From Thermoanaerobaculia bacterium (lineage in GTDB: Bacteria; Acidobacteriota; Thermoanaerobaculia; Multivoradales; JAHEKO01), in the NCBI GenBank assembly GCA_945787635.1, contig CALZIK010000044.1:1-36652 (forward strand): 36,652 nt of DNA. Direction: 5' to 3'. The notes under the pieces are model-generated. The model searched no databases. It worked only from the letters and a program-made list of their open reading frames with translations, and was not told where the DNA came from. Made by a program: the position numbers and the translations under genes. Positions 29,456 through 35,881 of the stretch are shown here, in pieces. Positions within the stretch are counted from its first letter, which is position 1, and each line of letters starts with the position of its first letter.

Positions 29456-29508
29456 GGTCCGGAGAGGGCTCTCATCAGACGAGTGCTGCAGAAGGTCACT
29501 CGGCCAGC

Positions 29509-32472
29509 TCAGGCCTCGACCGTCTTCAGCAGTTCCTCGAGCTCCGCCCGGCGTTGCCCGCCGAACGCCTGGTCCAGTTTCGGTTTTGCGGCGTCCATCA
29601 CCTCGATCGCTTCCCGCAAGAGCCTGGCGGCTTCCTCTCTCCCCGCCCGTCGCTCGCTCAGCAGCTCCCCGAGCATCCCCAGGCCGCCGGCCAGTCCGCG
29701 GGGGTTCTTCTGCCCGCGGACGATCTCCAGGCCCTGTCGCAACCTCTCCTCCGCTGGCCCCCTGTCTCCCAGCCCGCGCAAGGCCTTGGCCTCCCAGCAG
29801 TGCGCCCAGAAGAGCGGAATCGGCGCGTCGACCTCCCTGGCGATGCCTTTCGCGCGAAGCGCTTCGGAGAGGCCTTCCTGGAATTGCTCCAGGTCACAGA
29901 GGGTGCCTGCGATGTTGGAGCGAGTGATGCTCTCGAGACGGCGGTTGCCCAGCTGAAGATGGAGCTCGAGTGATTCTCTGAACCGACCGAGGGCGATGGC
30001 CGGCTCGTCGAGATAGCGATGGGCAGCGCCCATATCGTTCAAGTCCTCCGCCTCCATGCTCCGATTCCCGACCCGGCGATGCAGATCGAGCGCCTGCTGA
30101 AACATCTCGATCGCCTGGCGATGACGCCCCGAGTTGAACTCGACGGAACCGAGCTTGTTCAGGATGTCCGCCTTTCCTGACATCGAGCCCACCGCTTCAT
30201 AGAGCGCTTGCGCTTCGTGGTAGGACGCGACCGCGTCGTCGTGCCGGCTCATTCGCCAGAATACCTCGCCGCGGTATTTCAGAGTCGAGGCCTGGAGCCG
30301 CTGGTTGCCCAGCTCACGGTGAATCTCGAAAGCTTCGTTGAGCCGAGCCAAAGCGTCTTCCGCCTTGCCCTGGGTGCGCTCGAGCTCGCCGCTGTAGCTC
30401 AGGATTCCGCCCTCCTGCTCGCGATTGCCCTCCGCCCGGGCCAGGGCGAGGGCGCTCGCCAGATAGCGACGCGCGCGGTTCGGGTCGCGGCGCGCAAGGG
30501 CTCCGCCGAGGCGTTTGAGAAACTCTATCTCCTCGGTCTTTTCCCCTCCGGCGCGGGCGCACGCGAGGCCGAGCCGCAGAACCTTCAGCCCCTCCTCCCG
30601 CTCGGGCCTCCGGATGTAGTACTCCTTGAGCGAGTTCGCCAGCCGTAGACCAAGGTCGATCGTCTCGCGAGCGACGGCGCGAAGCTCCTCCGCTTCTTCG
30701 TCGACCAGGGGCTCGGGCTTTGCCGCCTCGTTGATGGGCAGCCCCTCGGCCGCAACCGCATCGATGATGTTGAAAGAGACCCGGCGGATGTGCGGTACGA
30801 GCGGCCATAGCTTTGTCCATTCCGTCTGCGGTCTGGCGAAGCCCTCGCTCGCTTCCTCGATCACCCATCGCCAGTACCGACTGCGAGCTGCCTCGCGCTC
30901 CGCCGGCTGGTCGGCCAGGAGACCCGTCGCGTAGGCACGGATCACCGGGTGGTTGTAGTAGAGATTCGACAGCAGCTCGACCCGCAGCATTGCCCGGAGC
31001 ACGAGTCCGCTCAAGGCGTCCAGCCCCTGCTGGCGAGTGGCGTCGCCGTCGCCCCAGACCGCGAGGATCAGGTCGCGAGGAATCTTTGAACCGTCCGGGA
31101 AAAGGCCGAGCGCGCGGAAGCGCCTCTCCCAGTTCGTACCCTGCTGCTCGTCGTTGCGCTCGAGCTCATCCAGGCTCAACGCCAGGCTGTGCGCGAGACT
31201 GTGGTTCTTGTCAGCGGCCTTCAGAGCCGTTTTGAGCTTGAAGCTCTCCACGCCTCGCTCCAGGCTCTCGGTGAGCATCTCGACTCTCTCTTCGATCCCA
31301 CCGAGATTGTCCAGCGTGGAGACGCCGAGATGGAGCGCCAGGGGGTGGCCCTCGACCTTCTCGATCAGGGTCAGAAGTACGCTCTTGCGCTCGTCCAGCA
31401 GGCGATCGAACTCCTCTCTCGAGGGTGCTCCCTCCCCCGCCCCGAACCGGTCGCGAAGACGAGCATGCACCATCTCCAGCGCATCTTCCTCGTCGAGTCG
31501 CTTGAGAGGGTAGCTAACGCCCAACTCGTTGCTGAGGTCCTCGGAGCGGGTAGTCAGAAGCTTGGTCGCGCCGGGGGGTACGGCTTCGAGGAGCTGCTGT
31601 ATCTCGGCGAAGTCGCTCGCCGCGACGTCGTCGAACAGGAACAGCAGTTCTCCGTAGCGGTCGGCCAGCACCGGAAGCACCTCCGACGGCTCGTATTCAC
31701 GCGGCGCCGGTTCCTTCAGATGAGTGCTCATCCATCGTCGCAAGACGCCGAGCGCCCGGGGTGGATCGGTGCCGCGCTCTTCGACCACCACTCCGCCCGG
31801 GTAGCGCGAAGCGAGCCGTCGAACGAGCTCCTGGGCCAGCACCGTCTTTCCCATCCCGCCGATGCCGTGGATAGCGATCAGGCGACGGGCGGACGGGGTA
31901 CGTGCCTCGTTGTCGATGAGGCCCTTGAGAGCTCTGAGGTCCTTCCTGCGGCCGACGAATCCGTGCTCGATCCCCCGAGCCTGGTTGACGAACTCCTTCC
32001 CCCACTTCGGCAGGCGATCGCCGATCGAGTTGATCAGCCGCCGCAGCCCGGCCTCGCGATCCTCGAAGAACGGGATGACGCTCTTGCTGTCGAGGCGCTC
32101 GGGGAGGAGACCTTCGGCGAAAAACTCTTTTTCCGGCTCGAAGAGACACGGAATGACCGTCTGCAGCAGATCGACCGCGCGCTGCTGCTCATAGTCGACC
32201 CACTTGTGTTTCTCCGTATCGACCGAGTTGCGCGTCATCACGGCGATCACCATCTGACTTCCGAGCAGACCCTGGTCGATCTCCGTCAGCCATTCGTCGC
32301 CGCCGCGAATGTTCTTGCTATCCCACCAGACACTGAGAGCTCCCGCGTCCTGCAGAGCTTCAAAGAGCTCCTCGGCGATCTCGCGATCCTCGCTGGCGTA
32401 GTTGATGAAGAGGCGAGCCGGCAGCTTCGGCGCGCCAGAGGTGGCCAGCGGGGGCTGCTGCGGTTCAGGCAC
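29509..32472 (-). CDS. TIR-NB-ARC-TPR (STAND) protein, probable defence receptor/effector
   Basis: 987 residues. An N-terminal TIR domain (about 18-150) has ARLFINYASEDREIAEELF, the BB-loop-like WWDSKNIRGGDEWLTEI and a candidate catalytic Glu E95 in WVDYEQQRA. An NB-ARC ATPase (about 170-400) follows, with GFVGRRKDL, Walker A GIGGMGKT (203-210), Walker B LLFLFDD, TKLLTTRS and GHPLAL. A winged-helix part ends with NHPVIRAYA (507-515), where NLRs have the MHD motif. TPRs run from about 640 to 960. In known relatives the repeats sense a trigger, NB-ARC oligomerises, and TIR cleaves NAD+ or makes a nucleotide signal. Here this is inference. The GTG start at 32472 has AGGAGA 6 nt upstream and lies 29 bp after the GGCT-like gene. 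Confidence 0.9.
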   Translation of the reverse strand: MPEPQQPPLATSGAPKLPARLFINYASEDREIAEELFEALQDAGALSVWWDSKNIRGGDEWLTEIDQGLLGSQMVIAVMTRNSVDTEKHKWVDYEQQRAVDLLQTVIPCLFEPEKEFFAEGLLPERLDSKSVIPFFEDREAGLRRLINSIGDRLPKWGKEFVNQARGIEHGFVGRRKDLRALKGLIDNEARTPSARRLIAIHGIGGMGKTVLAQELVRRLASRYPGGVVVEERGTDPPRALGVLRRWMSTHLKEPAPREYEPSEVLPVLADRYGELLFLFDDVAASDFAEIQQLLEAVPPGATKLLTTRSEDLSNELGVSYPLKRLDEEDALEMVHARLRDRFGAGEGAPSREEFDRLLDERKSVLLTLIEKVEGHPLALHLGVSTLDNLGGIEERVEMLTESLERGVESFKLKTALKAADKNHSLAHSLALSLDELERNDEQQGTNWERRFRALGLFPDGSKIPRDLILAVWGDGDATRQQGLDALSGLVLRAMLRVELLSNLYYNHPVIRAYATGLLADQPAEREAARSRYWRWVIEEASEGFARPQTEWTKLWPLVPHIRRVSFNIIDAVAAEGLPINEAAKPEPLVDEEAEELRAVARETIDLGLRLANSLKEYYIRRPEREEGLKVLRLGLACARAGGEKTEEIEFLKRLGGALARRDPNRARRYLASALALARAEGNREQEGGILSYSGELERTQGKAEDALARLNEAFEIHRELGNQRLQASTLKYRGEVFWRMSRHDDAVASYHEAQALYEAVGSMSGKADILNKLGSVEFNSGRHRQAIEMFQQALDLHRRVGNRSMEAEDLNDMGAAHRYLDEPAIALGRFRESLELHLQLGNRRLESITRSNIAGTLCDLEQFQEGLSEALRAKGIAREVDAPIPLFWAHCWEAKALRGLGDRGPAEERLRQGLEIVRGQKNPRGLAGGLGMLGELLSERRAGREEAARLLREAIEVMDAAKPKLDQAFGGQRRAELEELLKTVEA

Positions 32473-32501
32473 GATCGGTCTCCTCTCTGGGTCTGCGGCT
32501 C

Positions 32502-33071
32502 CTAGGGAACCGGAGCTCCGTTCAGGTGCTCGCGGTAGCGCTCGGTCACCAGGGTGGTCCCGTCGCCGAGAAAGGTCGTCTTGTCGAAGTACTCGCCGAA
32601 TCGACGGGAGATGCGGTAGGCGCCTTCGCGCGCCCATTCGATGTCCCGCCACAGCGGCAGGAGCGCCGCCAGGTCGCGCTCGATCCATCGCGCATCGCGC
32701 TCCGAGGAGTAGACCCAACCCTCTCCCAGCGGCTCGTCGGTGTCGAAGTGCCTCAGTCGAACTCGCTTCCGCAGATAGTAACGCTCCCGCCGGTCGAGAT
32801 CGGGCAGCTGCTGGTGGTCTACCCTGAACGCAAGACCGTTGAAGCTGTGTTCTGACGCCGGTTCCACGTTCATAGCCGCGTTCTCTATTCCGGCATCGCT
32901 GAGAACCGAGCTGGTCAGGGGCAGGTAGTGATCGGGCCGGAGGTTGAAGAGACGCTGATAGGCGTCGACGATGACCGGGAGCATCTCGATCGAGTTCCCC
33001 GCCTCGTCACCGATCGTGTGTCCGAGGGACGGGCGATAGAGAAGCGTGCCGTATCCGACCAGTAACTCCAA
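32502..33071 (-). CDS. Gamma-glutamylcyclotransferase-like (GGCT/AIG2-fold) protein
   Basis: 189 residues. The GGCT fold is suggested by the substrate-loop motif LVGYGTLL at the N-terminus, FNGLAFRVDHQQLPDLDRRERYY with the position of the catalytic Glu at E96, and GEGWVYSSE. Enzymes of this fold cyclise gamma-glutamyl groups to 5-oxoproline in glutathione or modified-peptide metabolism, but many small relatives have unknown substrates. The TTG start has a strong SD (GGAAGGAG, 5 nt). It is the first gene of a two-gene unit with the TIR-NB-ARC-TPR gene, with a 29-bp gap that contains that gene's SD. I infer it acts with, regulates or is guarded by the TIR protein; the chemical role is open. Confidence 0.75.
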   Translation of the reverse strand: MELLVGYGTLLYRPSLGHTIGDEAGNSIEMLPVIVDAYQRLFNLRPDHYLPLTSSVLSDAGIENAAMNVEPASEHSFNGLAFRVDHQQLPDLDRRERYYLRKRVRLRHFDTDEPLGEGWVYSSERDARWIERDLAALLPLWRDIEWAREGAYRISRRFGEYFDKTTFLGDGTTLVTERYREHLNGAPVP

Positions 33072-33102
33072 GAAGACTCCTTCCCGCGTGGAACTTTCCC
33101 CG

Positions 33103-33108
33103 AGTCTA
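33103..33108 (-). promoter_or_regulatory. Possible -10 box of the GGCT-TIR operon
   Basis: TAGACT on the minus strand, 31 nt before the TTG start, would leave a leader of about 25 nt carrying the SD. No clear -35 is seen. Confidence 0.25.
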
Positions 33109-33158
33109 CCAGCCCGCCAGTACCGAGCGAGGCGGTGAGGGCGAAGCCGCCGTCACGT

Positions 33159-33174
33159 CACGAGTAGACTCGTG
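33159..33174. promoter_or_regulatory. Palindromic operator-like site in the divergent region
   Basis: CACGAGT and ACTCGTG form a perfect 7-bp inverted repeat separated by AG. It lies between the divergent GGCT-TIR operon and the potassium-channel remnant, upstream of the putative -10 at 33103. The size and symmetry fit a dimeric regulator site. Confidence 0.4.
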
Positions 33175-33267
33175 CCGGTCGGGGACGCGCGCTTCACCTG
33201 CCTCCCAACGGCCGAAATGAAACCGAGAAGCCCATGAAACTCGCCGATCTCGACCAAGGAGCACATC

Positions 33268-33546
33268 ATGACCGTCGAAACAAACCTCAGCGCTGACGAG
33301 AAGGAAGCCGCTGACAAGCGCAACGACCGGGATCTCGGGTTCGGCGCGGTGGTGGCGAGCGAGAGCCGGCGGCGGTTGCTCAATCGCGACGGCAGCTTCA
33401 ACGTGCAACGCCACGGCCTGGGCTGGCGATCGACTGTCAGCTGGTATCACTCCCTGCTGGAGATGTGGTGGCCACGTTTTATTCTGCTCGCGCTCGCGGC
33501 TTACATGGCCGCCAACCGCGGACGCGCCACTGGCGATCGATGTTAG
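33268..33546 (+). pseudogene. Truncated inward-rectifier potassium channel (KirBac-type) N-terminus
   Basis: 92 codons with an excellent SD (AAGGAG, 6 nt before ATG). The product matches the start of bacterial Kir channels: a DLGFGAVVASESRRRLLNRDG slide-helix approach, SFNVQRHGLG, STVSWYHSLLEMWWPRFILLA and the first part of the outer membrane helix (ALAAYMAAN). After this the sequence becomes unrelated (RGRATGDRC, stop). The pore helix, selectivity filter, inner helix and cytoplasmic immunoglobulin-like domain are absent, and I find no continuation in another frame before the convergent aceA gene. It is probably a deletion remnant. A functional small membrane peptide is possible but less likely. 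Confidence 0.7.
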
Positions 33547-33590
33547 TCGCATTCACGAGACCAAGCCGGCCGCTTGATCTGATCGGCGCC

Positions 33591-33603
33591 CGGGGTGTCC
33601 CCG
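33591..33603. terminator. Possible bidirectional hairpin between channel remnant and aceA
   Basis: CGGGG and CCCCG pair around TGT immediately before the aceA stop codon, in the gap between convergent genes. There is no T-tract, so confidence is low. Confidence 0.25.
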
Positions 33604-33604
33604 A

Positions 33605-35881
33605 TTACGCCGGCACCGGGACCGGCGCACGCCGCTTGTCGATCAGCCTGGTCAGCTCGACCCGGTCGGGCTCCAGAAGCTCGGCGACGCCGTCGTCGTC
33701 CACGGTCGCCACGATGATGTGCCCGACCTCGGTGTGAACGTCGGAGAACAGCCCGTGGGTCTTCATCTTCTGGGTTTGATACTGGTTGTCCTCCGTGGGG
33801 CTCACATAGTGCACTGAGCTCACCCGGTAGCGGTGAATCAGAAAAAGGTGAACCAGGGTCATCAGCCGCTTCTTGCGCAACGACATATCAAAGGTGTTCT
33901 GGTCGCGCACCGACAGGATGTTGCGCTCACGGCGGTCCCGAATGATCGCGAAGACGACGTTGGCGACGTTCTCGCCCGCTTCATTGGCGATCCGAAGCTC
34001 GAGCAGCTCCGATCCGGCGGTGTGGGGGCGCAGCTCGACCGACAAGCGCCCAAGATCGTAGTGCGCTGTCCACATCCCGACCCACTCCTCCAGCAGCGCT
34101 CTGGGCACCTCTGTCTGGACCAAATGCTGAAACTGGGTCGAGCCCCTGCCCATCGCCTTGGTGGTCGCCGTGCGGCCCGACGAGGCCATGAGGGCTCCGT
34201 CCAGCCGGGGCCCGCCGACCAGGGTCTGCGGAGTCTTGTAGGGCGACTGCAGCAACCGGAACTTTCGCTGCAGCCGGGCCAGCGCCAACATTCCATCCTC
34301 TCGCAGCGCCGTCGCGAACTCCTCACCGGCGAGGCCGTCGATCTGATGTCCGCCGTAGGTGATGAAGTTGAAGACGAAACCGAGCTTGCCCAGTTCGACC
34401 GGAAAGCGTTTCATCTCGTCTTCGCTCATGCCGGTCGTGTCCCAATTGAAAGAGGGCGACAGGTTGTAGGCCAGCATCTTGTCGGGGAAGCGTTCGTGAA
34501 TCGCGGTCGCGAACCTGGCGGCGTCCTCGAGGTCCGCGGTCTTGGTTTCCATCCAGAGCAGATCCGCAAAGGGCGCGACCGCCAGCGACTTGGCGATGGC
34601 GTACTCGATCCCACCCTTGATCTGGTAGTAGCCCTCGGGGGTCTTGGAGAGCTCGCAGTCCCAGATCGGGTTGATGCCGAGCGCTCTGGCTTTCTCGCGG
34701 GCGGCAAAGAACGAAGCGTTCAGAGCGAAGCGATTCCATTCCTCGAACGTCCAGTCGAAACGCTCGCCCTCGCTCCAGCGGAACTCGAGCTCGTCGGCGA
34801 CCGCCTGGCCGTAGGTCTTCAACCCGGCCTCTACCTCCCACAGGTCCAGGTAGCTGGAGACCACGCCGTCCAGAACGGTCTCGGCGCCACCCTTCCCGTT
34901 GCTCGCAAACGCCCTGGCACTCTCGGTGATGGCCTCGTCGAGACCGGTACGCTCCAGCCACGCGTTGGCCGCCGCGTATTCCTCATCGGAGAGCTCGAAT
35001 AGAAGGTGTCCCCTGATGTCTCCCAGCCCGGCTTCGGAGAAACGCCGCGAGATCGCCACGAAGCCGGCCTTGTAGCTGGGCAGATCGAGATTGGTCGCGC
35101 CCAGGATGAACGGCTGATCGCGCTCGTCGGAGCGGCTTTCGAGAAAGGTCGCCGACTCCGCGTCGGTTCTCGCCACGATCAGACCCGGCACGCCCATCAC
35201 GTCGAGCTGAAAGCGGGAGGCGTTCAAGCGCTTGATCTGCTCATCGACCGCCACCAGGACCTTGCCGCCCTGGTGACCGCACTTCTTGACTCCCGGCTTC
35301 TGATCTTCGATGTGGTAGCCCGGCACGCCGACCTCGACGAACCGGCGAATGAGATTGCGCACGTGGGCGTCACCACCGTGCCCTGTGTCGGCGTCGGCGA
35401 CGATAAACGGCCGGTAGTCGATCTCGGGCTGGCTCCGAAGCTCCTCCTCGGTCATGCGCGCGCGCGCGAACTGATCGTTCTTGTCCGCGGTGAGCAGCGC
35501 GCGAACGATCGGCGCGGCTTCATCGGGCACCTGGCTCAGAGGATAGCTGGCCAGATCGGCGCCGGGGTCCTCTTCGATCGAACCCTTTGCCGAGGTCGCC
35601 CAGCCGCCGAGGTAGATCGCCTCGATTCCCTTGCGCTTCATGGTGACGGCCTGACCCGGGGAGTACGGTCCGAAGGTCGTGATCTGCGCCCGTTGGTCGA
35701 ACAGTTCCCGCAGGCGGGCGTAAAACCCCTCGGCTGCGACCCGGGCGACCGTGTAGTCGTTCTCGATTAAACCCTGCTGCTCGGCGATCTGGCGAGCCGA
35801 ATAGAGCCGAATGATGCCCTCGAAACGTTTGGCGGACATCCATACCTCGAGCTCCGCGATTCTCTCTTCCAGTTTCTTCAT
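33605..35881 (-). CDS. aceA: Isocitrate lyase, long ICL2-like type
   Basis: 758 residues, much longer than the common type of about 430-550. The catalytic barrel carries [23 protein letters not shown], the active-site [12 protein letters not shown] with Cys near 201, [16 protein letters not shown], and NLSPSFNWD. From about residue 590 a separate C-terminal domain follows ([32 protein letters not shown], ending before a basic tail). This layout matches the ICL2 group known from mycobacteria, in which the C-terminal domain binds acyl-CoA and activates the enzyme. It cleaves isocitrate to glyoxylate and succinate. It overlaps the malate synthase stop by 4 bp (ATGA), so the two are translationally coupled. 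Confidence 0.93.

Follow-up and report, generated by a model that had tools for sequence, protein, structure and literature searches.

A GGCT-fold protein paired with a TIR-NB-ARC-TPR receptor in a mobile two-gene cassette of an acidobacterium: a candidate enzyme on the input side of the receptor

We have analysed a window of 36,652 nt (the whole stretch of DNA under study, contig C44 of the Thermoanaerobaculia genome G000, whose assembly has 4.36 Mb), in which a gene for a GGCT-fold protein lies next to a gene for a TIR-NB-ARC-TPR receptor (Table 1). The two genes are read in the same direction; 29 bp separate the stop codon of the GGCT gene from the GTG at 32472 that starts the TIR gene, and both genes have good ribosome-binding sites. 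The original prediction that the GGCT gene leads a TIR operon, with a Shine-Dalgarno sequence of its own, is borne out by this arrangement. Its further suggestions, that GGCT is made at least as abundantly as the receptor and that a redox or modified-amine signal is involved, are conjectures; the Shine-Dalgarno sequence of the receptor gene is good as well. In the orthologue from G002, a genome of the same genus, both the TTG start and the AAGGAG of the GGCT gene are retained, while the GTG start of the receptor gene is backed by its Shine-Dalgarno sequence and by the aligned N-termini of orthologues. The promoter scan of the window yielded no sigma-70-like promoter, a result of little weight in an acidobacterium.

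Table 1. Features of the GGCT/receptor locus (positions within the window)
Feature	Position	Strand	Remarks
GGCT-fold protein, 189 aa	32502..33071	-	TTG start, TAG stop; ORF, Pfam, AlphaFold2 and structure search
Shine-Dalgarno AAGGAG of the GGCT gene	33077..33082	-	5 nt 5' of TTG; kept in the G002 orthologue
YGTL motif, residues 7-10; GGCT-fold substrate-loop motif	33042..33053	-	Kept in relatives
E96 codon, predicted catalytic acid/base	32784..32786	-	Aligned to human GGCT E98, ChaC2 E83
TIR-NB-ARC-TPR receptor, 987 aa, GTG start, Shine-Dalgarno AGAGGAG	29509..32472	-	Pfam and sequence
TIR domain (residues 22-147), with Glu95 of KWVDYE as candidate NADase glutamate	32032..32409	-	Aligned to AbTIR WTNYE
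NB-ARC domain, residues 196-407, P-loop GIGGMGKT	31252..31887	-	Pfam and sequence
TPR region, ~residues 640-987	29512..30555	-	Pfam and sequence
Two-gene mobile cassette, stretch shared with G002 (82.6% nt)	29499..33121		Unrelated flanks in G002
Insertion of 4.1 kb that separates the convergent genes aceK and aceA	29456..33604		Absent in G001, G008

The receptor carries profile matches to TIR_2 (4e-19), NB-ARC (4e-12) and TPR_12 (4.6e-24), all in one chain. A candidate NADase glutamate of the WxxYE type is common to its TIR domain and AbTIR in the alignment. PADLOC assigned neither the GGCT protein nor the receptor to a named system.

The Pfam family GGACT (PF06094) matches the GGCT protein of the window marginally, at 23.9 bits (cut-off 22.8), and the G002 orthologue more clearly, at 28.3 bits. 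Searches of PDB sequences with phmmer and with profiles gave no match to the protein; the fold was assigned from Pfam and the structural model. The AlphaFold2 model has a mean pLDDT of 79.5 and a pTM of 0.79, with residues 48-64 modelled poorly. A Foldseek search against PDB returned 18 GGCT-fold chains at probability 0.99-1.00, including the Arabidopsis AIG2-like proteins At3g28950 and At5g39720 (at the top of the list), human GGCT, ChaC2, YkqA, PH0828 and mouse A2LD1, after which the score dropped sharply (0.06 for the next match). The original prediction had set the presence of a GGCT barrel as its own structural check and had proposed comparison with ChaC, GGACT and GGCT; the model gives the barrel, and all three match it, with VIA-align structural Z of 12.3 (ChaC2), 11.7 (GGCT) and 8.5 (human GGACT). 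As modelled, the window protein carries a GGCT barrel.

The fold motifs, YGTLL and the glutamate of RRERYY, had been described as intact, and the relatives agree with this: YGTL and E96 are identical in all relatives covering those positions, and H48, Y98/Y99, Y121 and Y152 are also kept in the relatives covering them. In alignments with human GGCT and ChaC2, whose sequences were checked against PDB, E96 falls in register with E98 and E83, respectively; the E-values are weak and the two registers agree. The pocket residues of ChaC2 are Y6, G7, S8, H39, Y87, Y109 and Y144 (PMC7022552). Their plausible counterparts in the window protein are Y7, G8, T9, H48, Y98 or Y99, Y121 and Y152; E96 alone was placed by alignment, and the counterparts in the pocket list, including H48, Y121 and Y152, were assigned by motif and order. 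Since the family is small (7 sequences), the conservation of residues in part reflects shared ancestry. From these motifs we infer that the GGCT protein of the window is probably a catalytically competent enzyme.

The genes aceK and aceA are convergent and almost abutting in G001 (same genus) and in G008 (same family), and lie 4.1 kb apart in the window. In G002 neither flank of the GGCT and receptor genes is related to its counterpart in the window, over the length that the window and the G002 contig allow us to compare, so that these two genes alone make up the shared unit. The GGCT and receptor genes move as one cassette. Clear terminal repeats were not seen at the ends of the cassette, and we recognised no defence genes directly beside it; its surroundings are a glyoxylate-bypass cluster.

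Several observations concern the site itself. A 92-aa ORF at 33268-33546 (+ strand) resembles the N-terminus of the inward-rectifier K+ channel KirBac3.1 (E 1e-5) and stops near the first transmembrane segment; this truncated channel remnant beside the cassette is missing from the G002 match. The gene at 33605-35881 (- strand) encodes a long isocitrate lyase of 758 aa, which the ICL profile matches in two stretches; it adjoins malate synthase and is convergent with aceK, and the cassette interrupts this glyoxylate-bypass cluster. Between aceK and aceA, G001 has a hairpin-like sequence, GGGGACACC...GGTGTCCCC, of which the window retains the right half only.

Within the class, 5 of 149 genomes carry the GGCT subfamily; it was also found in 4 of 396 genomes sampled in the phylum (one of the four being weak) and, as one clear case, among 298 genomes of the gemmatimonadete phylum. 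Searches of plasmids, phages and viral contigs found no relatives of the GGCT protein. Each clear member of the subfamily has a TPR protein as its neighbour or as its fusion partner. The neighbour is a TIR-NB-ARC-TPR gene in G000, G002 and G011, and every genome with a full orthologue of the window receptor has the GGCT gene as well. In G023 and G031, which belong to another family, the GGCT protein shares 53% identity with that of the window and its gene stands second, after a TIR/SEFIR-STAND-TPR gene, so that the order is reversed; in G023 the start of the GGCT gene overlaps the stop of the receptor gene (ATGA). The receptors of these two genomes are only 21-30% identical to the window receptor, which implies either much faster evolution of the receptor or receptor exchange. 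In the gemmatimonadete, the GGCT gene precedes a gene for a membrane-anchored TM-TPR protein without TIR, and the frame of this partner is broken (one apparent frameshift). In a Vicinamibacterales contig (L021, 8001-9125) GGCT residues 1-134 are fused in frame to the TPR tail, and neither the remainder of GGCT nor the TIR-NB-ARC portion is present; this fusion is probably what a deletion left behind, or else an error of assembly.

Many bacteria and archaea have stand-alone GGACT-family genes, which are present in 9 of 14 control genomes, and a common housekeeping or gamma-glutamyl repair enzyme could have come to lie beside a TIR gene by chance. We consider such a chance neighbourhood very improbable and strongly disfavour it: exactly two genes are co-mobile, the pairing recurs with a different STAND receptor and in reversed order, the subfamily is rare and other GGACT genes are found without the pairing. 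Among GGACT-family genes of 59 relatives (with two more in G000 itself), only the orthologues adjoin a tblastn match to either receptor.

In close pairs the GGCT gene has dN/dS values of 0.14-0.20; those of the receptors are 0.14-0.26. Purifying selection acts on both genes. Decay of the GGCT gene was rejected on the grounds of dN/dS and motif conservation.

Which side of the receptor the GGCT protein goes with can be judged from G023 and G031, which were compared at the same locus (the downstream gene is shared). Identity between the two is 45% in TIR/SEFIR, 92% in STAND, 86% in TPR and 87% in GGCT. The turnover of TIR/SEFIR with GGCT, STAND and TPR constant, together with the existence of a TIR-less partner, favours an input-side role; this one genome pair gives moderate evidence that GGCT tracks the sensor side of the receptor and not the TIR domain. 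The two receptor genes (L009, 5750-8527, and L010, 10212-13124), with their low identity in TIR/SEFIR and 86-92% elsewhere, point to rapid turnover or a swap of the output domain.

Related genera have a GshB-strength match (~215 bits). All five bearers of the class lack one, and in these the GshB search gave ATP-grasp matches of 54-62 bits or none. Bacillus subtilis, which lacks GshB, also gives a match in this search, so the weak ATP-grasp matches are probably RimK-like. As bearers of the class have no GshB-strength match, glutathione looks, on this indirect ground, like an improbable substrate of the GGCT protein, with the caveat that the MAGs are incomplete and that there are other synthesis routes.

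This bears on the possibility that GGCT works on the output side, where it would act on the product of the TIR domain or serve as a second effector; for instance, it might cleave an ADP-ribosyl or glutamyl conjugate, or deplete gamma-glutamyl thiols while TIR depletes NAD+. The catalytic residues needed for such a role are intact, and at two unrelated places (L053 and plasmid pTBMP1) GGCT-fold genes adjoin ADP-ribosylglycohydrolase genes, a hint of ADP-ribose chemistry. Still, we judge the output side to be unlikely, given that GGCT keeps its 87% identity where TIR/SEFIR is down to 45%, that one TPR partner is entirely without TIR, that glutathione looks improbable as a substrate in the bearers and that the ADP-ribosylglycohydrolase pairing was not seen again in 249 genomes. 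At L053 (3160-4517) the gene overlapping the ADP-ribosylglycohydrolase gene is another GGCT-like gene. GGCT with ADP-ribosylglycohydrolase was rejected as a general pair, the L053 case being non-recurrent and the plasmid case having a much shorter GGCT.

The GGCT fold may instead act without catalysis, as a binding module, a lid, an antitoxin-like inhibitor or a bait on the TPR/NB-ARC part, with the site merely holding a ligand. A fixed operon in which reversed order is tolerated would fit such a partner, as would the family-specific invariant stretches (FNLRPDHY) outside the classic motifs and the Vicinamibacterales ORF with its TPR tail. The catalytic glutamate and the Tyr/His set are, however, fully retained in all relatives, which binding alone would not require, and the Vicinamibacterales fusion resembles a remnant or a fault of assembly rather than a selected protein. 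A non-catalytic role is unlikely in our estimate.

The reading that we tentatively prefer, as somewhat likelier than any of these and still short of probable, is that the GGCT protein is a competent enzyme on the input side of an NLR-like TIR receptor and makes up half of the mobile two-gene cassette. From the class of the receptor and the mobility of the cassette we infer an immune role, in which the GGCT gene would behave as an accessory to a TIR-STAND receptor. The TPR/NB-ARC part would sense an invader or a damage signal, the receptor would oligomerise upon nucleotide exchange, and the TIR domain would then consume NAD+ or make an ADP-ribose signal, so that the cell stops. GGCT would be a working cyclotransferase on the input side. 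It might set the level of a gamma-glutamyl-type ligand or modification such that the receptor is off, the receptor being released when infection disturbs that level; or GGCT, perhaps itself bound to the TPR/NB-ARC part, might produce the activating molecule. More specifically, the ligand of the receptor might itself be a small gamma-glutamyl-type molecule or modification, which the enzyme would produce or remove; this proposal is a good deal less likely than an input-side role as such, and we offer it as speculation.

In the literature covered, which included few subscription journals, we found no TIR or STAND system described with a GGCT/AIG2 partner, and no such protein described as an antitoxin; the pairing of GGCT with a TIR receptor suggests an unreported two-gene immune cassette. 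Activators are known for few bacterial TIR-STAND receptors, and an enzyme with a known fold and a clear active site that stays with the sensor half of a receptor whose TIR half varies offers a testable handle on the input. If the more specific proposal on the ligand is true, there would be an immune input chemistry built on cyclotransferase activity.

The window receptor resembles bacterial TIR-STAND and NLR-like receptors in its TIR domain, NTPase, repeat sensor, candidate NADase glutamate and P-loop, and differs from them in having a GGCT partner gene. With Thoeris (ThsA/ThsB) it shares a TIR domain and a weak ThsB profile match. The cassette is not Thoeris, however: it consists of the GGCT and TIR-NB-ARC-TPR genes, flanked by aceK and aceA, it has no ThsA-type receptor and no separate ThsA effector in which a domain senses a ligand, and TIR, NTPase and TPR are joined in a single protein.

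Likewise, the GGCT protein shares with the GGCT-fold superfamily of PF06094 (human GGCT, GGACT and plant AIG2-like proteins) the predicted barrel, the YGT motif, the catalytic glutamate and the pocket Tyr/His residues. In structural alignment it is only 7-19% identical to solved members of the fold, and it stands apart from PF06094 members by its own C-terminal helices, the FNLRPDHY stretches, the tie to a receptor gene and the marginal Pfam score. The glutathione-specific ChaC family (PF04752) gives the best structural Z and has the LDxRE register in common with the window protein; in contrast, PF04752 does not match the window protein at E-values up to 0.1 and the class bearers have no GshB-strength match, and by profile the protein is not a ChaC. 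The plant gene AIG2 (avrRpt2-induced gene) has the GGCT fold and is induced in NLR immunity, and Arabidopsis AIG2-like chains lead the Foldseek list. The likeness is one of fold, and the immune link is suggestive only; since the fold is immune-induced in plants, its shared use would have wider interest.
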